Assembly (NCBI GenBank): GCA_903822545.1
Contig: CAIJPN010000182.1
Location: 1-64,000, forward strand
Origin: an uncultured Anaerolineae bacterium
GTDB taxonomy: Bacteria; Chloroflexota; Anaerolineae; Anaerolineales; Villigracilaceae
Direction: 5' to 3'
Length of the DNA stretch: 64,000 bases
Position 1 is the stretch's first letter. Every line of letters starts with the position of its first letter. The position numbers and the translations under genes are program-made. Below the pieces are notes generated by a model. It saw only the letters and a program-made list of their open reading frames with translations. It ran no database searches and was not told the origin of the DNA. Shown in pieces: positions 40,159 to 50,276 of the stretch.

Positions 40159-40857
40159 ATGTTTCTTGCTGAACTCTTTGGCACAATGACACTGATCGTC
40201 CTCGGTGACGGCGTTGTCGCGAACGTCCTGCTCAACAAATCCAAAGGCCAGAACTCTGGCTGGATCGTCATCACCGCTGGTTGGGCCTTCGCGGTTATGA
40301 GTGGTATTTTTGTTGCCACCGCCATGGGCGGCCCTGGCAGCCTCAACCCGGCTTTCCAGATTTCCTCCATGGTGCAGGGCGGTGACTTCAACGCTGCGTT
40401 GATGAACCTGCTCGGCGAGTTCGTGGGCGCGTTTGTTGGCGCTGTCCTGGTCTGGTTGCTCTACCTGCCCCACTGGGAAGTTACCTCCGATGCTGGCCTC
40501 AAGCTGGCTGTGTTCTCCACCGGCCCGGCCATCCGCAACCCCGGCCTGAACCTGCTCACCGAAATCATCGCCACCTTCATGCTCGGCCTGGTTGCTTCCG
40601 CCATCCCGGCTGCTGTTGGTGCCACTGGCATGAGCGCCTTTGTTGTTGGTATGGTCATCTGGTCGATGGGTCTCTCCCTGGGCGGCCCCACTGGTTATGC
40701 CCTCAATCCTGCTCGTGACCTCGGCCCCCGCATTGCTCACTTTGTCCTGCCGATCCCTGGCAAGGGCGATAGTGACTGGGGATACTCCTGGGTTCCCGTT
40801 GTTGGCCCGATCATCGGCGCAGTGCTTGCCGGTTTCGTCACCAAGATGCTCTTCTAA
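40159..40857 (+). CDS. glpF: Glycerol uptake facilitator (aquaglyceroporin)
   Basis: A 232-residue MIP channel with six TM helices and two pore half-helices. The first NPA motif is NPAFQ, the second NPARDLGPRIAH, in which Asp after NPAR is the mark of glycerol-conducting members. It has a clear TAAGGAG ribosome site. It admits glycerol, which GlpK (42715) and, after oxidation, DhaKL would phosphorylate. It is the first gene of the operon. Confidence 0.94.
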   Translation: MFLAELFGTMTLIVLGDGVVANVLLNKSKGQNSGWIVITAGWAFAVMSGIFVATAMGGPGSLNPAFQISSMVQGGDFNAALMNLLGEFVGAFVGAVLVWLLYLPHWEVTSDAGLKLAVFSTGPAIRNPGLNLLTEIIATFMLGLVASAIPAAVGATGMSAFVVGMVIWSMGLSLGGPTGYALNPARDLGPRIAHFVLPIPGKGDSDWGYSWVPVVGPIIGAVLAGFVTKMLF

Positions 40858-40900: not shown

Positions 40901-41902
40901 ATGAAAAAACTGATTAATAAGCCAGAAGATGTTGTCCGTGAAGAATTGGAAGGCATCGCTTATGCCCACGGCGACCTTGTAAAAGTCCACTACGATCCGA
41001 ATTTTATTGTGCGCGCCGATGGCCCCATCAAAGGCAAAGTGGGCGTCATCTCTGGTGGTGGCTCAGGCCATGAACCCATGCACGGCGGTTTTGTTGGAAT
41101 GGGCATGTTGGATGCCGCCTGTCCCGGCGCAGTTTTCACATCACCCACACCGGATCAAATGCTTGAAGCGACCAAAGCCGTCAATGGCGGCGCTGGTGTG
41201 CTGCACATCGTCAAGAACTACACTGGCGATATCATGAACTTCGAAATGGCTGCCGACCTGGCCCGTGCCGAAGGAATTGAAGTCGAAGCAGTAGTAACCG
41301 ATGATGACGTGGCCGTCAAAGACAGCCTCTACACAGCTGGCCGCCGCGGCGTGGGCGTCACCGTCCTTGCCGAAAAACTGTGCGGAGCCGCCGCAGAACA
41401 GCGGCGCTCACTTAAGGATGTAGCCGATGTCTGCCGCAAGGCCAAGAACCTGGGCCGCACCATGGGCATGGCGTTGACTTCTTGCACCGTTCCGCATGTC
41501 GGCAAGCCCACGTTTGATCTGCCCGAAGACCAGATGGAAATCGGCATTGGTATTCATGGCGAACCTGGCCGTGTGCGCATGCCGCTCAAACCCGTCGATG
41601 AAATCGTTGAAATGCTCATGGAGCCCATCATCAGCGACATTCCCTACAAGAGTGGCGATGAAGTGCTTCTGTTCGTCAACGGCATGGGCGGAACCCCACT
41701 GGTTGAGCTTTACATTATTTATCGCAAAGCCTATGAGATCGCCAACAAACACGGTCTCAAGGTTGTCCGCAACCTGATTGGCCCGTACATCACCAGCCTC
41801 GAGATGGCCGGAACTTCCATCACTCTGCTCAAGATGGATGACGACATGCTCAAGCTGTGGGATGCCCCTGTTAAGACCCCTGGTTTGCGCTGGGGTGTGT
41901 AA
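40901..41902 (+). CDS. dhaK: Dihydroxyacetone kinase subunit DhaK
   Basis: A 333-residue substrate-binding subunit. It has the [16 protein letters not shown] motif, and His219 in [13 protein letters not shown] is the residue that forms a hemiaminal with dihydroxyacetone in the family. Length is close to the 356 residues of E. coli DhaK. It binds DHA and takes phosphate from ADP/ATP held by DhaL. Its unphosphorylated or substrate-free form may also regulate the DhaR-like protein, as in E. coli; that is inference here. Confidence 0.97.
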
Positions 41903-41969
41903 ACCGAATACTTTTTTCAGCCAGGGCGGTCGTATGGCCGCCCTGGCGTTGCCAACGGAGTAATTGAAT

Positions 41970-42608
41970 ATGTCCATCACCCGTGATGATGCTCTGGCCT
42001 GGATCAAAGCCGTTGCCGGTGTAATCAACACCAACAGCACCTACCTGACCCAACTTGATGCGGCGATTGGCGATGCTGATCATGGCGCTAACATGGATCG
42101 TGGTTTCAAAGCTGTTTTGAACAAAATGCCCGAAATCAGCGACAAAGATATCGGCACGATCTTCAAAACTACCGGGATGACATTGATTTCCACCGTTGGC
42201 GGGGCTGGCGGCCCGTTATATGGCACTTTCTTCCTGCAAGCGGGTACAAAAACGGTCGGCAAGATGGAACTCAGCCTGAGCGATTGGGCTGAAGCCCTCG
42301 AATCGGCCTTGAGCGGTGTCTTGATGCGTGGCAAAGCCGAATTAGGCGACAAAACCATGGTAGATGCCCTCACCCCGGCAGTCAACGCCCTCAAACAGGC
42401 CATCAAAGATAACCAGCCCATTAACAAAGCCCTCGGGCTTTCAGCAGAAGCAGCAAAAGCAGGCATGGAAGGTACCATTCCCTTGGTGGCGCGCAAAGGC
42501 CGAGCCAGTTACCTGGGCGAACGCAGCGCCGGTCACCAAGACCCCGGGGCGACATCCACTTATTTGATCTTAAATGCCGCCGCCGAAACCTGGAAAGAGG
42601 TTGCCTGA
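41970..42608 (+). CDS. dhaL: Dihydroxyacetone kinase subunit DhaL
   Basis: About 212 residues from the ATG at 41970, 9 nt after CGGAG; a TTG 6 nt upstream is less likely. It is an all-helical nucleotide-binding subunit. The LDAAIGDADHGANMDRG motif carries the three Asp ligands of the two Mg ions that hold ADP. The DhaL-type C-terminal region KGRASYLGERSAGHQDPGA is intact. In PTS-linked kinases ADP stays bound and is rephosphorylated by DhaM, which is encoded at the end of this operon. Confidence 0.97.
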   Translation: MSITRDDALAWIKAVAGVINTNSTYLTQLDAAIGDADHGANMDRGFKAVLNKMPEISDKDIGTIFKTTGMTLISTVGGAGGPLYGTFFLQAGTKTVGKMELSLSDWAEALESALSGVLMRGKAELGDKTMVDALTPAVNALKQAIKDNQPINKALGLSAEAAKAGMEGTIPLVARKGRASYLGERSAGHQDPGATSTYLILNAAAETWKEVA

Positions 42609-42714: not shown

Positions 42715-44211
42715 ATGGCTAAATATGCAGCAGCAGTTGATCAGGGCACTACCAGCACCCGTTTCATGATCTTTGACTACGCGGGCAAGGTTGTTGCCAT
42801 CGACCAGAAAGAACACGAACAGATTTTCCCCAAGCCAGGTTGGGTCGAGCACAACCCGCTTGAAATCTGGCAGCGCACCCAGGAAGTCATCGACGGCGCA
42901 CTCAAGAAGAGTGGTGTAGATCCCAAAGATATCGCTGCGGTTGGCATCACCAACCAGCGCGAAACCACCGTTGTGTGGGAACGCGCCACCGGCAAGCCCG
43001 TCTACAATGCCATCGTCTGGCAGGACACCCGCACCGATGCCATCTGCAATGAACTTGCCAAAGATGGCGGCCAGGATCGTTTCCGCGAGAAAGTCGGCCT
43101 GCCCCTGGCCACCTATTTCTCCGGCCCCAAGATCAAATGGGTACTCGATAACGTCCCCGGTGCCCGCGAAAAAGCTGAAAAGGGCGAAGTGCTCTTCGGC
43201 AATATTGACACCTGGGTTATCTGGAACCTGACCGGCGGCCCGAACGGCGGCGTACACGTCACCGACGTTTCCAATGCCTCCCGCACCATGCTCATGAACC
43301 TCGAGACCCTCGACTGGGATCCCGATATGCTCAAAGCCATGGGCATCCCCCATGCCATGCTGCCTCGCGTCCGCGCCTCCGCCGAAGTCTACGGCAAGGC
43401 AGTCGGCTCCCTGAGCGGCATCCCCGTTGCCGGTGACCTCGGCGACCAGCAGGCCGCCCTCTTCGGCCAGACCTGCTTCAGCGCTGGCGAAGCCAAGAAC
43501 ACCTATGGCACCGGCTGCTTCATGCTCCTCAACACCGGCACCAAGCCCGTGCAGTCCAAGAACGGCCTGCTCACCACCCTGGGCTACAAGATCGGCAATG
43601 AACCCGCCGTATACTGCCTCGAAGGCTCCATCGCCATCACCGGCGCCCTCGTCCAGTGGCTGCGCGACAACCTGAAATTCTTCGATTTCTCCAAGCACAT
43701 CGAAGAATATGCCAAGGCCGTTCCCGATAGCGGCGGCGTCTACTTCGTGCCCGCCTTCTCTGGCCTGTTCGCTCCCTACTGGAAGAGCGACGCCCGCGGC
43801 GCCATCGTTGGCCTGACCCGCTTCGTCACCCGCGAGCACATCGCCCGCGCTGCCCTCGAAGCCACCGCCTACCAGACTCGCGAAGTGCTCGATGCCATGA
43901 ACGCCGACTCCGGCGTTCCGCTGACCGCCCTCAAAGTCGACGGCGGCATGGTCTTCAACGACCTGCTCATGCAGTTCCAGGCCGACATCCTCGGCGTGCC
44001 CGTCATCCGCCCGACCGTTGCCGAAACCACCGCCCTCGGCGCAGCCTATGCCGCCGGTCTGGCCGTTGGCTTCTGGGCCAAGGTTGAAGATCTGCGCGCC
44101 AACTGGGGCAAAGACAAGGAATGGGACCCCAAGATGGATGCAGAAGAACGCGGCAAGCTCTACAAGGGCTGGAAGAAAGCCGTCACCCGCACCTTCGACT
44201 GGGTTGAATAA
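42715..44211 (+). CDS. glpK: Glycerol kinase
   Basis: A 498-residue FGGY-family kinase converting glycerol and ATP to sn-glycerol 3-phosphate. It starts after a CGGAGGAATCG site. Motifs are [14 protein letters not shown] at the ATP-binding N-terminus, [35 protein letters not shown] and the C-terminal [18 protein letters not shown]. It feeds the GlpA-like dehydrogenase encoded downstream. Its codon use is strongly biased to C/G-ending codons compared with its neighbours, which hints at high expression. A strong terminator follows it. Confidence 0.98.
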
Positions 44212-44282: not shown

Positions 44283-44897
44283 ATGCCACCTGACCTGCCG
44301 AACACTACCTGGGAAAGCATGTATGCCCCCTACGACCAGGCAACCTACCAATCCGTTTTGCAGCAAATCATGTTGGGGGAAGTAATCCTGGATATCGGCG
44401 CCGGGGATTTGCGCCTGGCCCGACAAATGGCAAACCTCGCCCGGAAAGTGTACGCCCTTGAAATCGCCCCGGAGCTTTTCTCCCGCGCAATCGAGCAAAA
44501 GCCCCTGCCCGAGAACATCATCCCAATCTGCGCCGATGCCCGTAGTTGGGATTTCCCATGCGACATCACCACCGGCATCCTGCTGATGCGGCACTGCACC
44601 CACTTCCAGCTTTACGCTGAAAAACTGCTGGCATCTGGCGCCCAAAGACTCATTACCAACGCCCGCTGGGGCATGGCTGTCGAAACCATCCACCTGGACG
44701 CGCCGCGCATCGAATACAAAGACCTCCAGCTTGGCTGGTACGCCTGCTGGTGCGGCAGCACCGGCTTCAAACCCGGCCTCGCCCACTTATTGACCGAAGA
44801 ACTGACCTCCTGCACCTTTGAAGTTGATGCCTGCCCCAACTGTTCAGCCCGAAAGGCAAAATCACCAGATTTTGCGCAAAAACTCCACTCGGCATAA
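44283..44897 (+). CDS. Small SAM-dependent methyltransferase-like protein
   Basis: A 204-residue protein with a class I methyltransferase fold: motif I VILDIGAGDLRLARQMA near residues 34-50, then VYALEIAPELFSRA (acidic ribose-binding residue) and ICADARSWDFP. The C-terminal part has CWCGSTGF and CPNCSA, possible metal-binding Cys pairs. It resembles the N-terminal core of rRNA adenine dimethyltransferase-type proteins but is shorter. The start has no ribosome site. Its last codons read through an AAAATC/GATTTT palindrome. Why it lies in a glycerol locus is not known. Confidence 0.72.
   Translation: MPPDLPNTTWESMYAPYDQATYQSVLQQIMLGEVILDIGAGDLRLARQMANLARKVYALEIAPELFSRAIEQKPLPENIIPICADARSWDFPCDITTGILLMRHCTHFQLYAEKLLASGAQRLITNARWGMAVETIHLDAPRIEYKDLQLGWYACWCGSTGFKPGLAHLLTEELTSCTFEVDACPNCSARKAKSPDFAQKLHSA
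44856..44875. repeat. Palindrome within the 3' end of the methyltransferase gene
   Basis: GCAAAATC (44856-44863) and GATTTTGC (44868-44875) form perfect 8-bp arms around ACCA. It is translated (AKSPDFAQ) in the last 20 residues of the protein. Confidence 0.75.
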
Positions 44898-44998: not shown

Positions 44999-46165
44999 AT
45001 GACCAAACCACATGCCATCATCATCGGAGCAGGGTTTACCGGCGTGGCTACCGCGCACGACCTGGCTTTGCGCGGATTTGATGTGACCGTCGTCGAACGC
45101 GGCGATATTTGCAACGGTACATCTGGCCGCACCCACGGCTTGCTCCACAGCGGCGGACGCTACGCCGTCAAAGACAAAGAATCGGCCATCGAGTGCATCG
45201 ACGAGAACACCATCCTGCGCAAGATCGTCCCGCAAGTCATCGAACCCAATGGCGGCCTGTTCATCGCCATCGAAGAAGGCGACCTGGCTTACGCCGAGCA
45301 ATTCATCGAAAGCTGCGAAGAATGCCACATCCAGCTCGATGAGTTGACCCCCCAGCAGGCGCTCAAGCTCGAGCCGAACATCAACCCCAAAGTGTTGAGC
45401 GCTTTCATCATCCCCGATGGAACCTTCGATCCGCTGCGCCTGGCGCTGGCTTTTGCCGGTACCGCCAAACACAACGGCGCGAAATTCCGCACCTACACCG
45501 AAGTGCAGGGGCTGCTGACAGATGGAAAAGGCACCGTCACCGGCATCAAAGTGCTCGACCGGGCTTCCAATAAATCACAAGAACTCCACGCCGATGTGGT
45601 CGTCAACGCCACCGGCGCCTGGGCCGGGCAGATCACCGGCATGGCCGGGCTGGATGCGCCCGTCAAACCCACCCCCGGCATCATGGTGGCCTACGACCAG
45701 CGCTTCGTCCAGCGCGCCATCAACCGCCTGAATGTGCCTGGCGATGGCGACATTGTGCTGCCCCAGCGCCGCATGGTTGTGGTCGGCACCACATCCTTCG
45801 ATGCTGAAAATCCCGATTACATCCCCGTGACCGATGAGCAGATCAAGATCATGCTCGATCGTGGCAGCGAACTCATCCCCGGCATCCGCAACGCCAAACC
45901 GCGCGGCATCTACATGGCCACCCGCCCGCTGGTTGGCGGCGGCTCGGGACGCAGCATCGCCCGCACCTTCAAGTGCTACGACCACAAAGAAACCCACGGC
46001 ATCGATGGTCTGGTCACAATCACCGGCGGCAAAGCCACCACCCTGCGCGCCATGGCCGAAAAGACCGCCGATGTAGTTTGCGCCAAACTGGGAGTCACCA
46101 CCGCCTGCGTCACCAAAGAGACTCCGCTTCTCTCGTACCGCCAGTATTACACCATTCCCAACTAA
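44999..46165 (+). CDS. glpA: GlpA-type glycerol-3-phosphate dehydrogenase flavoprotein, short form
   Basis: A 388-residue FAD-dependent oxidoreductase of the DAO fold that would oxidise glycerol 3-phosphate to dihydroxyacetone phosphate. The FAD fingerprint is IIIGAGFTGVATAHDLALRG, then VVERGDICNGTSGRTHGLLHSGGRYAV, the signature of anaerobic GlpA. The usual C-terminal BFD-like [2Fe-2S] domain of GlpA (E. coli protein about 540 residues) is absent. Instead the next gene, 11 nt away, encodes an SDH-type iron-sulfur subunit. glpB and glpC are not present. This suggests that electrons pass from FAD directly to the SdhB-like protein. A GGAG ribosome site precedes the ATG. Confidence 0.92.
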   Translation: MTKPHAIIIGAGFTGVATAHDLALRGFDVTVVERGDICNGTSGRTHGLLHSGGRYAVKDKESAIECIDENTILRKIVPQVIEPNGGLFIAIEEGDLAYAEQFIESCEECHIQLDELTPQQALKLEPNINPKVLSAFIIPDGTFDPLRLALAFAGTAKHNGAKFRTYTEVQGLLTDGKGTVTGIKVLDRASNKSQELHADVVVNATGAWAGQITGMAGLDAPVKPTPGIMVAYDQRFVQRAINRLNVPGDGDIVLPQRRMVVVGTTSFDAENPDYIPVTDEQIKIMLDRGSELIPGIRNAKPRGIYMATRPLVGGGSGRSIARTFKCYDHKETHGIDGLVTITGGKATTLRAMAEKTADVVCAKLGVTTACVTKETPLLSYRQYYTIPN

Positions 46166-46176
46166 GGAGAAGCGCC

Positions 46177-46905
46177 ATGACCGAAAAATGGAACATCACC
46201 CTGCGAGTTTCCCGCCAAAAAGATACCGAAAACCAGCATTTTGACGACTTCAAAATGGAAGTCAACCCCGATGAATACGTGCTCGACGCGGTAGAACGCG
46301 TCTGGGCCTTCATGGATCGCACCCTGTGCTACCGCCACGCCTGCCACCACTCCACCTGCGGCGCCTGCGGTATGCGCGTCAACGGCGTAGAAAAACTGAC
46401 CTGTATTACCCCCATTCGTGCCGTTACCAGCAACGGCGCCACGCTCAAAGTTGAACCGCTGCGCAATTTCCCGGTCGTCAGCGATCTGGCTGTGGATATG
46501 GGCGCTTTCTACCGCAAAATGGAAGTAGTCAGCGCCCGCGCCGTGCTGCCCATCACCGAAGCCGAGATCGAGAACCCTGCTACTAACTGGCCCCAGAATG
46601 ATGCCCAATTCCTGCGCCTGAGCGACTGCCTGGAATGCGGATTGTGCATCAGTGCCTGCCCCGTAGCCGCCACCAGCCCCGAGTATCTTGGCCCGGCTCC
46701 CCTGGCCGCTGCCCAGGATGTGGGCATCCACCGCAACCCCGAATTGCTCGGCATCGTCGATTGCGAAGATGGCGTCTGGCGCTGCCACAGCGCCTTTGAG
46801 TGTACAGCCGTCTGCCCTTCCTTCGTCGATCCCGCACGTCGAATCATGGCCCTGCGCACACAGGTTATCGGCGCGAAGCTGGGCAAACTCTTCGGCAAGG
46901 CCTGA
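46177..46905 (+). CDS. Succinate dehydrogenase/fumarate reductase-type iron-sulfur subunit
   Basis: About 242 residues starting MTEKWNITLRVSRQ (ATG 46177, GGAG site). An N-terminal ferredoxin domain has C-HHST-C-GA-C-(11)-C for [2Fe-2S]. The C-terminal domain has CLECGLCISACP and CHSAFECTAVCP for [4Fe-4S] and [3Fe-4S] clusters, with the same spacing as SdhB/FrdB. All eleven expected Cys are present. It is flanked by glpA and two cytochrome b-type anchors. No SdhA/FrdA gene is in the window. Its most likely partner is the GlpA-like flavoprotein. Confidence 0.93.
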   Translation: MTEKWNITLRVSRQKDTENQHFDDFKMEVNPDEYVLDAVERVWAFMDRTLCYRHACHHSTCGACGMRVNGVEKLTCITPIRAVTSNGATLKVEPLRNFPVVSDLAVDMGAFYRKMEVVSARAVLPITEAEIENPATNWPQNDAQFLRLSDCLECGLCISACPVAATSPEYLGPAPLAAAQDVGIHRNPELLGIVDCEDGVWRCHSAFECTAVCPSFVDPARRIMALRTQVIGAKLGKLFGKA

Positions 46906-46918
46906 TGGAGTCGAAATC

Positions 46919-47302
46919 ATGAACAACCAACCTTCTGCAAACAAATTTTGGGCCTGGTTCAACCCCATGGGCCGCCAGGTAGGCGGCTGGGCCTTCATCC
47001 TAAACCGCATCACCGCCCTCGGCCTGACCTTTTACCTGTTCCTGCACCTGATTGTGCTCAACCAGCTTGCGCAAGGCCCCGCAGCCTATGGCGGCTTCAT
47101 CGCCCTGACGGAGAATCCCATCGTCAAACTGGGTGAGTTGCTGGTTGTCGCTGCAGCCATCATGCACGGGCTGAACGGCATCCGCATTATTTTCACCAGC
47201 TTTGGCATCGGTGTCACCCGCCAAAAAGAGCTTTTCTATGGCTTTATGGTGGTTGCGCTGGTTGCCATCCTGTTTTTCGCCGCCCGCATGTATATGGGAT
47301 AA
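46919..47302 (+). CDS. Succinate dehydrogenase-type cytochrome b anchor subunit (SdhC-like)
   Basis: A 127-residue protein starting at the ATG at 46919. It has three TM helices (about 24-47, 66-88, 100-124). The SdhC pattern is visible: GGWAFILNRITALGL (Ser/Arg-type quinone region), His in FLHLIVLNQ and a second His in AIMHGLNGIRIIF, matching the H-x3-G-x-R heme b ligand motif. It would anchor the iron-sulfur subunit and pass electrons to menaquinone. Confidence 0.85.
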   Translation: MNNQPSANKFWAWFNPMGRQVGGWAFILNRITALGLTFYLFLHLIVLNQLAQGPAAYGGFIALTENPIVKLGELLVVAAAIMHGLNGIRIIFTSFGIGVTRQKELFYGFMVVALVAILFFAARMYMG

Positions 47303-47306
47303 CCCT

Positions 47307-47702
47307 ATGACCACACCCACTACCTTCAAACCCGTTTCTGCCCCGCGCCCAGGCGAAAATTCCACACTCTGGCTCATCAAAATTGCCACCGGGCCGGTGC
47401 TGGTGCTGGTGTTAATCCTGCACTTCACTGTCAACCATTACCTGGGCAGCATGTCTTCCGGCTTGATGACTTATGATGATGTTATTCAGTACTTCCAAAA
47501 CCCCATCATCCCGGCCATCGAGATTTTGTTTCTCATCACCGTGGTCAGCCATTGCCTGATCGGCCTGCGCGGCATCATCCTCGACCTGAACCCCTCGCGC
47601 AGCGTACTCAACATCACCACATGGGCTTTGGTTATTCTCGGTGTTTCATCGGTTGTTTATGGCATCTGGCTGGCGCTAACTATCGCATCCAAAAGCGTTT
47701 AA
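47307..47702 (+). CDS. Succinate dehydrogenase-type cytochrome b anchor subunit (SdhD-like)
   Basis: A 131-residue protein starting at the ATG at 47307, 4 nt after the SdhC-like stop. Three TM helices lie near 23-43, 68-90 and 104-126. Histidines occur in LILHFTVNHYLG and in VVSHCLIGLRGIILD, the latter matching the SdhD/FrdD H-x3-G-R pattern. With SdhC it completes a di-subunit membrane anchor. Confidence 0.83.
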   Translation: MTTPTTFKPVSAPRPGENSTLWLIKIATGPVLVLVLILHFTVNHYLGSMSSGLMTYDDVIQYFQNPIIPAIEILFLITVVSHCLIGLRGIILDLNPSRSVLNITTWALVILGVSSVVYGIWLALTIASKSV

Positions 47703-47792: not shown

Positions 47793-50276
47793 ATGGTTGG
47801 ATTGGTACTCGTTTCTCATAGCCGCGCCCTGGCCGATGCTTTAGTCGGGCTATTACGCCAGGTGGCCTCGCCCAACCTGCCGGTAGTGGTTGCCGCTGGC
47901 ATTGGCGATGATCGCCGCGAGTTTGGCACAGACGCTGTTGAAATCATGGAGGCCATCCAATCCGTTTACACCGATGACGGTGTGCTGGTGTTAATGGATT
48001 TGGGCAGTGCCGTGCTCAGTGCCGAGATGGCGCTGGATTTCCTGCCCGATGAAATGAAAACCAATATCCGTTTTTGCGCTGCGCCCATGGTGGAAGGGGC
48101 TGTGGCCGCTGCCGTCCAAATTGGGTTGAATAGCGATTTGGATACGGTCTGTCGTGAGGCGAATGAAGCCCTCGCCCCCAAACGGCAGCATCTCGGGTTG
48201 GAATTGAACGAACCAACCGCCCTGATCGTGCCAACCGTTGAATCGGCTGAATCCATCACCCTGACTCTTACCAACCTGCACGGCCTGCACGCCCGCCCGG
48301 CCGCCAAATTCGTCCAGGCGGCGGCAGGATTCAAGGCCACCATCACCGTCAGCAACCTGACGAACGGCAAAGGCCCGGTTTCGGCGCGCAGCCTGAATGC
48401 CGTGGCTACGCTGGGGGCGATTGAGAATCACCAGATCCGCATCAGTGCATCGGGTGAGGGCGCTGCTAAAGCGTTGGAGACGCTCAAAGTGCTGGTGGAA
48501 GCCAATTTTGGCGAAGCGCCCGCTGCCACAGCCGCTATCACGCCCAAAATAATGGAAGCGCGCCCCCAGGGCGGAATCCCCATCTCAGAAGGAGTCGCGC
48601 TCGCGCCGTTGTATCGCTACCAGCCGCCGACCCCGCCCATTCCCGATTCTCCAGCCGAAAACCTGGAAGCTGAATGGCAGCGTTTGCAAGATGCCATTGC
48701 CGCCACATCCAGCGATATTGCTCGCCGTGCCCGGCAGCTAAAACAGACTATCGGCGTGGACGAAGCCGCCATTTTTGATGCCCACGCGCTGATCTTGCAG
48801 GACCCCGACCTGGCCGATTCCGTCCGTGAAGGTATTTTTGCGCGCCGCGAAAACGCCGCCCGCGCCTGGGACACAGCCATCGCCGCCGCAGTGCGCAGTT
48901 TTCGGGCGCTGGAGGATGCCTATTTGCAGGCCCGCGCCGTGGATGTGGAAGATGTGGGGCGGCAGGTGTTGTTTGCGCTTTCGGACAAAAGCGCCGCTGC
49001 GCCGCTGGTTTTTGCGCAGCCGGTGATTTTGTACGCCGCTGACCTGACCCCCACCGAAACTTCGCAGTTGGATATGAAAATGGTGCTCGGCATCATCACG
49101 ACGGGCGGCGGGCCGACCTCGCACAGCGCCATCCTTTCGCGCGCGCTGGGCATCCCGGCGGTGGCGGGGGTGGGTGCCCTGCTGGAACAGCATCCCGATG
49201 GCATTTTGACCGGGCTGGATGGTTTTTCTGGCGAAGTTTGGCTGAACCCGGCCCCCGAACTGGTCTCAACCCTGGAAAAGCGCCGCGCCGAATGGCTGGT
49301 GGGCCGCGAAAAGCTGCAACAGGCCAGCCACGCCCTGGCCGTAACCAAAGATGGCCGCCGCGTGGAAGTTTTTGCCAACCTGGGCGGCCTGGCCGATGCC
49401 CGCGCTGCGCTCGAAAATGGCGCGGAAGGCTGTGGCCTGCTGCGCACCGAGTTCCTGTTCCTGACGCGCGATACTGCCCCAGGTGAGGAGGAGCAGTATG
49501 CCTTGCTGCGCCAGATTTTTGAGACGATGGGCGCAGCCTGCCCCGTGACCACCCGCACGCTGGATGTGGGCGGCGACAAAGAACTGCCGTATATCCATCT
49601 GCCGGTGGAGCCCAACCCGTTCCTGGGGGTGCGTGCGCTGCGCCTGTCGCTGGCGCGGCCAGAGCTGTTCATGCCGCAGTTGCGCGCCATCTTGCGCGCT
49701 GCCGATGGCCTGCCTTGCCGTATCATGTTCCCAATGGTGGCGGATGTGAACGAAATCCGCCAGGCGCGCCAGTGGGTGGAAAAAGCCCACGCCGAGTTGG
49801 AAATCGAAAAAATAGCCCACGCCTGGCCGGTAGAATTGGGCATTATGGTGGAAATCCCCTCGGCGGCGCTGCTCAGCCCGGTGTTGGCCCGCGAAGTGGA
49901 CTTTTTCTCTATCGGCACCAACGACCTGACGCAGTACACATTGGCCGCCGAACGCGGCAACCCGGCGCTCTCTCACCTGGCAGACGGGTTGCACCCGGCG
50001 GTCTTGAAATTGATCAAAACGGTTGCAGATGCCGCCCACCAGGCCGGGAAATGGGCCGGGATTTGTGGCGAACTGGGCGGCGATGCCGAAGCCGCCCCGG
50101 TGCTGGTCGGCCTGGGCGTGGATGAACTCAGCCTGAACCCGGCGGGCATCCCGCGCATCAAAGCTGTCCTGCGCGAGTGGACAGTGGATGCCGCCCAGGC
50201 GCTGGCCCAGCGCGCGCTGGAGTGTGCCACCAGCGCGGATGTGCGCATGCTGGTGCGCCAGTCTGCCAGTTCTTGA
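47793..50276 (+). CDS. dhaM: DhaM-HPr-enzyme I fusion, PTS phosphodonor for dihydroxyacetone kinase
   Basis: An 827-residue protein with three parts. Residues 1-130 are a mannose-type EIIA (DhaM) domain with active His9 in LVLVSHSRALAD. Residues about 150-240 are HPr with His166 in LHGLHARPAAKF. Residues about 258-827 are a complete enzyme I with phospho-His444 in TGGGPTSHSAILSR, a PEP-binding barrel (LLRTEFLFL, FSIGTNDLTQYTLAAERGN) and catalytic Cys758 in AGICGELGGDA. E. coli DhaM has EIIA, HPr and only the N-terminal part of EI, so this full-length version can take phosphate from PEP by itself and hand it to ADP on DhaL. It lies at the end of the glycerol genes behind a GAGGA site. Confidence 0.95.
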   Translation: MVGLVLVSHSRALADALVGLLRQVASPNLPVVVAAGIGDDRREFGTDAVEIMEAIQSVYTDDGVLVLMDLGSAVLSAEMALDFLPDEMKTNIRFCAAPMVEGAVAAAVQIGLNSDLDTVCREANEALAPKRQHLGLELNEPTALIVPTVESAESITLTLTNLHGLHARPAAKFVQAAAGFKATITVSNLTNGKGPVSARSLNAVATLGAIENHQIRISASGEGAAKALETLKVLVEANFGEAPAATAAITPKIMEARPQGGIPISEGVALAPLYRYQPPTPPIPDSPAENLEAEWQRLQDAIAATSSDIARRARQLKQTIGVDEAAIFDAHALILQDPDLADSVREGIFARRENAARAWDTAIAAAVRSFRALEDAYLQARAVDVEDVGRQVLFALSDKSAAAPLVFAQPVILYAADLTPTETSQLDMKMVLGIITTGGGPTSHSAILSRALGIPAVAGVGALLEQHPDGILTGLDGFSGEVWLNPAPELVSTLEKRRAEWLVGREKLQQASHALAVTKDGRRVEVFANLGGLADARAALENGAEGCGLLRTEFLFLTRDTAPGEEEQYALLRQIFETMGAACPVTTRTLDVGGDKELPYIHLPVEPNPFLGVRALRLSLARPELFMPQLRAILRAADGLPCRIMFPMVADVNEIRQARQWVEKAHAELEIEKIAHAWPVELGIMVEIPSAALLSPVLAREVDFFSIGTNDLTQYTLAAERGNPALSHLADGLHPAVLKLIKTVADAAHQAGKWAGICGELGGDAEAAPVLVGLGVDELSLNPAGIPRIKAVLREWTVDAAQALAQRALECATSADVRMLVRQSASS

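Follow-up and report, generated by a model that had tools for sequence, protein, structure and literature searches.

Four consecutive genes on a 64,000-nucleotide (nt) stretch from an uncultured Anaerolineae bacterium (GenBank assembly GCA_903822545.1, contig CAIJPN010000182.1; the whole stretch is called the window) raised the question of which enzyme is encoded when a gene for the flavoprotein GlpA is followed by genes for SdhB-, SdhC- and SdhD-like subunits of complex II. The four genes very probably encode a membrane-bound glycerol-3-phosphate:quinone oxidoreductase in which GlpA replaces SdhA, the flavoprotein of succinate dehydrogenase (SDH). This replacement had been proposed from the sequence alone, and was supported by a conserved operon, a separate SDH, a conserved glycerol-3-phosphate site, the iron-sulfur cysteines and the anchor ligands. 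Spacing of glpA, sdhB, sdhC and sdhD by 11, 13 and 4 nt, all on the + strand, was reproduced when the coordinates were rechecked (Table 1), and no SdhA, GlpB or GlpC was present among the scanned proteins of the cluster, as had been claimed.

Recurrence of the arrangement was examined by searching 199 genomes of the class with the window SdhB (up to 14 candidates scored per genome). Matches formed two groups, the first in 39 of the 199 genomes (E ≤ 5e-49; 41-100% identity) and the second, among the matches listed, at about 27-38% identity; the lower group behaved as ordinary SdhB where checked. GlpA was directly upstream of SdhB in 34 of the 39 genomes (30 class loci, window included, plus L214, L215, L230 and L232), two loci were cut by a contig end (L231, L233), and three were split. 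In one genome beyond the 39 (G035), SdhB was divided over two contigs with GlpA upstream (L187, L234). A scan of named genomes matched 372 stretches and confirmed 284 of them, and the 80 best of the 284 were examined; being top matches to the family alignment and overlapping the class set, these 80 are not an independent sample. GlpA was present in 78 of them, SdhC in 77, SdhD in 75 and SdhA in none, and the two loci without GlpA (L055, L085) began at a contig edge. Isolates in this set were Thermanaerothrix daxensis, Bellilinea caldifistulae, Longilinea arvoryzae, Anaerolinea thermolimosa, Levilinea saccharolytica and Leptolinea tardivitalis. With flanks of up to 1.5 kb at the 30 class loci and of up to 4.5 kb at the 80 named loci, SdhA was beside the operon at none of either set. 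Adjacency of GlpA to SdhB persisted down to about 40-50% identity, with a median intergenic gap of 15 nt and an overlap in 31 of 120 pairs (starts chosen by script). At control loci with ordinary SdhB, chosen by the authors from the class search, SdhA adjoined SdhB in 17 of 17 and GlpA in 0 of 17. In the phylum around L115 (titled Bacillota), SdhB was matched at E ≤ 1e-45 in 3 of the 199 genomes searched, that of L115 included, with the short GlpA upstream in each. The sequence-only reading had suggested looking in other genomes for glpA adjoining sdhBCD without sdhA, and the arrangement proved recurrent; a chance neighbourhood was ruled out by this recurrence across class and phylum. Viral contigs scanned with the SdhB protein yielded no relative.

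The window GlpA matched TIGR03377 with 444.1 bits, below the cut-off of 552.8, over positions 2-379 of 530, and this was by far its top NCBIfam model. With the match ending at 379 and no Fer2_BFD (PF04324) match in the family scan, the claimed lack of the C-terminal Bfd-like [2Fe-2S] domain was borne out. The Fer2_BFD match was present in one full-length GlpA from the same phylum, and at least four cysteines past residue 380 were found in 30 of 30 full-length GlpA proteins. At 116 of the 122 operon loci GlpA was of the short form, 366-406 amino acids (aa) long with a median of 388, as against 514-567 aa for full-length GlpA (n = 30). Left out were six loci with a GlpA below 360 aa or none: L049, L055, L063, L075 and L085, at contig edges, and L129, with an internal stop and 280 aa. 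A frameshift-truncated GlpA was ruled out by conservation of the short form.

In the reverse direction, TIGR03377 was run over 301 genomes of the phylum (up to four candidates scored per genome), and gave a match over the cut-off in 50 genomes and 19 matches of 394-456 bits, mostly ending near positions 380-400 of 530. SdhB of the GlpA-linked type followed the short GlpA in 15 of these 19. Full-length GlpA loci had SdhB in 0 of 30 (flanks up to 1.5 kb); at two examined further, the next product was another flavin adenine dinucleotide (FAD) protein, taken as GlpB by its place, one of which matched FAD_binding_2. In trees built from rows chosen for spread, 42 GlpA-linked SdhB rows (3 split ones included) were set apart from 18 SdhA-linked rows by one branch (100/100), and 38 SdhB-linked GlpA rows plus two split ones formed a single branch (100/99), adjacent to a group that holds 12 of the 30 full-length GlpA proteins. 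Rows L223 and L184 had long branches and an unsure placement. Another group of full-length GlpA-like proteins, from other families of the phylum (L193-L197), gave 374-386 bits to TIGR03377, and the four of them placed in the GlpA tree were outside the branch holding canonical and short forms. Three columns separated GlpA-linked from SdhA-linked SdhB at the chosen thresholds (H54, E72 and E208 of the window protein); the position of H54 and E72 beside or among the [2Fe-2S] ligands is suggestive only.

Residue conservation was counted over distinct sequences from the 122 operon loci, after short or missing proteins were dropped (6 GlpA, 1 SdhB, 7 SdhC and 7 SdhD). Residues R54, Y55, R309 and R322 of GlpA were invariant (101/101) and K345 was kept in 100 of 101, and all five aligned with identical residues in the solved GlpD 3da1 and GlpO 2rgh. 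Their equivalents in Escherichia coli GlpD are presumably those that hold the substrate. The predicted GlpA structure had a mean local confidence score (pLDDT) of 88.5, its top Foldseek matches in the PDB were GlpD and GlpO entries (template modelling score by query length 0.75-0.85), and the dihydroxyacetone phosphate complex 2r4e was among the nearest structures. A complex as proposed with a substrate other than glycerol-3-phosphate, such as another hydroxy acid or an amine as for other DAO-family enzymes, would agree with the GlpA score below the TIGR03377 cut-off and with the many substrates taken by that family, several members of which matched distantly. It was nevertheless judged highly improbable, as the aligned GlpD/GlpO residues were nearly invariant, TIGR03377 was far ahead of the other NCBIfam models, and GlpK was matched upstream in 71 of the 80 related loci (in L129 at only 28% identity).

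The SdhB-like protein of the window matched Fer2_3 and Fer4_8 over the cut-off and contained all 11 cluster cysteines, in agreement with the claim that every one was present; per site, 104-106 of 106 distinct relatives kept the cysteine, and the exceptions came from masked letters or a single odd end. Its nearest solved relative was E. coli FrdB (1kf6_B), which was also the structure nearest to its model (pLDDT 77.7; below 50 at 123-153). Both small membrane proteins matched Sdh_cyt above the Pfam cut-off, as expected of the SdhC- and SdhD-type anchors that had been read from the sequence. Conservation was complete for R30, H43 and H83 of SdhC (100/100) and for H39, H44, H82 and D93 of SdhD (99/99). 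In a profile search, Mycobacterium smegmatis Sdh2 was the nearest match for both anchors (SdhC to 6lum_C, 3.6e-22; SdhD to 6lum_C, 2.4e-11, and to 6lum_D, 7.8e-7). PMC7447783 describes Sdh2 as containing two b haems, ligated by D107/C87 and D65/C47. SdhC H43 and H83 aligned with the bD and bP ligands C47 and C87, and SdhD H39 and H82 with the bD and bP ligands D65 and D107. The anchor thus appears to carry bis-histidine ligands of the di-haem type, contributed by both subunits, and probably holds two b haems.

Whether the three complex-II subunits could be served by an ordinary SdhA depends on the rest of the genome. The source assembly (5.5 Mb in 237 contigs; stated to be 100% complete and 3.15% contaminated) held a complete ordinary SDH elsewhere, with sdhC, sdhD, sdhA and sdhB on contig C24 (L014). 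The sequence-only reading had held that an sdhA lacking its own sdhBCD would speak against it; the SdhA found sits with its own sdhC, sdhD and sdhB. A whole-genome search for GlpC gave six matches, all below the cut-off of 279.9 bits (highest 110.4), and no genome-wide search for GlpB was made. The genome also encoded a second, GlpD-like protein on contig C101 (544-aa frame; label by similarity). Of the 39 operon-bearing genomes, the SdhA-type profile PF02910 was matched in 35 and not in four. These four (G140, G198, G184 and G081, stated to be 100, 90, 93 and 90% complete) had no SdhA match either by the profile or in a protein search with the source genome's own SdhA; incomplete assembly could hide sdhA in some of them, less easily in all four. 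The same protein search gave a single 544-aa frame in Leptolinea tardivitalis (G204; 31-34% identity), taken as NadB by its length, and in G207 an 895-aa frame (40-46% identity) that is not a clear SdhA.

By one alternative, SdhBCD would be a second SDH or fumarate reductase that borrows SdhA, and GlpA would be adjacent through shared regulation or by chance and act alone in the manner of GlpD. The family membership of SdhB, SdhC and SdhD, the likeness of the GlpA fold to GlpD, and the PF02910 match in 35 of 39 genomes (G204 and G207 not clear) are compatible with it. It was considered very unlikely in view of the four genomes without an SdhA match, the NadB-sized frame as the only offer in L. 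tardivitalis, the possession of its own B, C and D by the SDH of the source genome, and the retention of GlpA adjacency to low identity with SdhA in 0/30 and 0/80 operon loci. The set is not an orphaned SDH awaiting SdhA, because the genome's own SdhA has its own sdhC, sdhD and sdhB and because four relatives combine GlpA-SdhBCD with no SdhA match.

With GlpA in the place of SdhA, GlpK would make glycerol-3-phosphate, and GlpA would move two electrons from it to FAD, yielding dihydroxyacetone phosphate. The SdhB-like subunit would take the electrons from FAD through its [2Fe-2S], [4Fe-4S] and [3Fe-4S] clusters, and the SdhC/SdhD-like anchor, probably with two b haems, would carry them on to quinone. 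The [2Fe-2S] cluster of SdhB would stand in for GlpB/GlpC as well as for the C-terminal [2Fe-2S] domain that GlpA has lost. Given the conserved ligands and the Sdh2 alignment, a path of FAD, three clusters, haem or haems and quinone was the best-supported reading; we infer the physical complex, its substrate, the electron path and the quinone from such comparisons. Electrons run downhill from glycerol-3-phosphate (about -190 mV) to menaquinone (about -74 mV), and the two haems of menaquinone-linked succinate dehydrogenases serve an uphill reaction. Retention of two-haem ligands although the reaction is downhill poses a puzzle. Electrons might travel by way of both haems to a quinone site at the opposite face of the membrane, which would couple oxidation of glycerol-3-phosphate to the membrane potential, unlike in GlpD and GlpABC, an idea that was held to be doubtful; in genomes without SdhA, the set would then be the sole complex-II-family enzyme of the cell.

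Two variants, both from the phylum around L115, suggest that the membrane end can be swapped with the GlpA-SdhB pairing retained. In L223 (532-2244, - strand), SdhB-, SdhC- and SdhD-like parts were fused in a 571-aa protein in which Fer2_3, Fer4_8 and, twice, Sdh_cyt were matched, and the fusion gene overlapped glpA by a few bases. In L222 (339-1355 and 1261-2169, - strand), GlpA and SdhB were followed by a cysteine-rich protein replacing SdhC/SdhD, which by eye looks like a CCG-domain (GlpC/HdrB) protein; its 1.7-Mb genome (G651) had no UbiA, menD or mqnA/D matches.

Several observations weigh against the proposed four-subunit, quinone-linked enzyme. Three genomes of one family (G003, G073 and G156) held the GlpA-type SdhB apart from GlpA (SdhB in L218, L219 and L220). 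In G003 and G073 the short GlpA was on another contig (L188, L189), and there was no sdhC or sdhD match in the 8 kb around SdhB; in G156 no GlpA search was made. Short GlpA had no adjoining SdhB in 4 of the 19 reverse-search matches, namely G003, G073, G369 (L184, a distant outlier) and G393 (L192, which grouped with full-length GlpA in the tree). In L190, away from a contig end, GlpA and the GlpA-type SdhB were followed by no SdhC or SdhD match. These cases show that the set can come apart. Among the high scores from covariation over 100 GlpA-SdhB pairs were those at SdhB 60, 63 and 75, which adjoin the [2Fe-2S] ligands. At the 61 loci with a full GlpK, SdhC-GlpA scored as high as GlpA-SdhB (250 and 252 per 100,000 over z 6), and covariation therefore maps no GlpA-SdhB interface. 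GlpK scored low with SdhB and GlpA (4-7 per 100,000), so that GlpA, SdhB and SdhC vary as a block separate from GlpK. A distance correlation of 0.853 (115 loci) is what shared descent would lead one to expect. Biochemistry on GlpA-SdhBCD was not found in the literature, for which reason the enzyme activity is put forward as a prediction. Finally, 13 of the 17 genomes checked for quinone markers had neither menD nor mqnA/D over the cut-off, isolates G199-G204 included.

The last of these observations, together with the CCG-like protein in place of SdhC/D in L222 and the lack of a UbiA match in its genome, would agree with an acceptor other than quinone, the electron wire terminating at a soluble partner or at the haem. 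This was thought quite unlikely, since the anchors kept invariant ligands in 99-100 distinct sequences, menD was over the cut-off in the source genome, and marker-less isolates G199-G203 kept a strong SdhA-type PF02910 match. Isolates G199-G204 represent Thermanaerothrix, Bellilinea, Longilinea, Anaerolinea, Levilinea and Leptolinea and all hold GlpA-SdhBCD, the strong match being in the first five of the six. Absence of the markers does not exclude quinone use, because SDH is itself a quinone enzyme and is indicated by that match in G199-G203. UbiA-family prenyltransferases were found in 16 of the 17 genomes. The earlier naming of menaquinone as the acceptor stood for the source genome with its menD, in which organism menaquinone is most likely the acceptor, and did not carry over to the wider set, where only 4 of the 17 genomes (G000, G184, G206 and G081) had menD or mqnA/D support.

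The setting of the four genes was a glycerol and dihydroxyacetone cluster with, in order, an MIP channel, DhaK, DhaL, GlpK, a methyltransferase-like gene, the four genes and a DhaM-HPr-EI fusion (Table 1). The methyltransferase-like gene (44283-44897) intervenes between glpK and glpA, and glpA is thus not immediately 3' of glpK as had been stated. Among the 71 related loci with both genes, the end of glpK was at most 150 nt from glpA in 36, and in 21 the distance exceeded 500 nt. The methyltransferase-like gene was present in 25 of the 80 related loci, in some 5' of glpA and in some 3' of sdhD, and the DhaM-HPr-EI fusion was matched in 40 of the 80.

Table 1. Features of the glycerol cluster in the window, in order of position (cut-off: that of the model named).
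Feature	Coordinates	Strand	Length (aa)	Matches and role
MIP-family channel	40159..40857	+		PF00230; no NCBIfam model over cut-off; probable glycerol facilitator, judged from the cluster
dhaK	40901-41902	+		TIGR02363/TIGR02365 pair over cut-off; dihydroxyacetone kinase subunit
dhaL	41964-42608	+		TIGR02363/TIGR02365 pair over cut-off; dihydroxyacetone kinase subunit
glpK	42715..44211	+	498	TIGR01311 756.9 bits, over cut-off; glycerol kinase, glycerol-3-phosphate supplier
Methyltransferase-like accessory gene	44283..44897	+		PF00398 and PF13649/PF08241 matches
glpA, short form	44999..46165	+	388	PF01266 and TIGR03377 matches; FAD-dependent glycerol-3-phosphate dehydrogenase catalytic subunit
sdhB-like	46177..46905	+	242	PF13085 and PF13183; TIGR00384 over cut-off; [2Fe-2S], [4Fe-4S], [3Fe-4S] subunit
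sdhC-like membrane anchor	46919..47302	+	127	PF01127 and TIGR02970 over cut-off
sdhD-like membrane anchor	47307..47702	+	131	PF01127 over cut-off
DhaM-HPr-EI fusion	47793..50276	+	827	TIGR02364, TIGR01003 and TIGR01417 over cut-off; phosphoenolpyruvate-dependent phosphoryl donor of dihydroxyacetone kinase

If the proposed enzyme is real, complex II would be modular, its iron-sulfur and anchor part accepting a flavoprotein of another family with another substrate. A glycerol-oxidising respiratory enzyme would be present in about a fifth of the sampled class genomes (39/199), cultured members included, and many bacteria of one phylum would probably feed glycerol electrons directly into the membrane. 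Annotation would change as well, as the GlpA-SdhBCD genes can readily be mistaken for a second succinate dehydrogenase. Canonical bacterial glpA is said, in the part of PMC11962113 available, to co-occur consistently with glpB and glpC, a printed view that would be corrected.

The sequence-only reading had also presented the complex as possibly new. No characterised enzyme was found, and to that extent the claim held; the arrangement itself had already been drawn for the archaeon Thermofilum pendens as a prediction from gene order and phylogeny (PMC11962113 Fig. 9b, 2025, in the part available). As far as the published gene order goes, the T. pendens set is like that of the window, glpA being followed by SdhB-, SdhC- and SdhD-like genes, and differs in being archaeal. 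No further papers on the GlpA-SdhBCD pairing were found in the open-licence literature, and, as far as the searches go, there is no published account of the bacterial branch or its spread, of genomes that have the operon without SdhA, or of the fused form. The window set represents a kind hitherto drawn for archaea only; it is a bacterial member, uncharacterised and fairly widespread.

Among other known systems, GlpA-CoxG of Sulfolobus acidocaldarius, as described in the same part of PMC11962113, is likewise a GlpA-like enzyme without GlpBC that reduces quinone, but it is anchored by CoxG, is active without CoxG and has no iron-sulfur subunit. No CoxG-like family was matched in the Pfam scan of nine cluster proteins. 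GlpD and GlpO share the DAO fold and the aligned substrate residues with the window GlpA; GlpD has no iron-sulfur partner and has a C-terminal domain of its own, used in the dimer according to the available text of PMC11962113, which is missing in the window GlpA. GlpABC of E. coli and Haloferax shares with the window the GlpA catalytic domain (best family TIGR03377) and the glycerol cluster, whereas the window GlpA has no Bfd-like [2Fe-2S] domain and SdhBCD is found where GlpB/GlpC would stand. Complex II shares the three-cluster SdhB and an SdhC/SdhD pair that has haem ligands at the four positions of the di-haem Sdh2, the nearest solved parts being M. smegmatis Sdh2 (6lum) for the anchors and E. 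coli FrdB (1kf6) for the iron-sulfur subunit; it differs in its flavoprotein, which in the window is a DAO-family GlpA instead of SdhA, and in its substrate.

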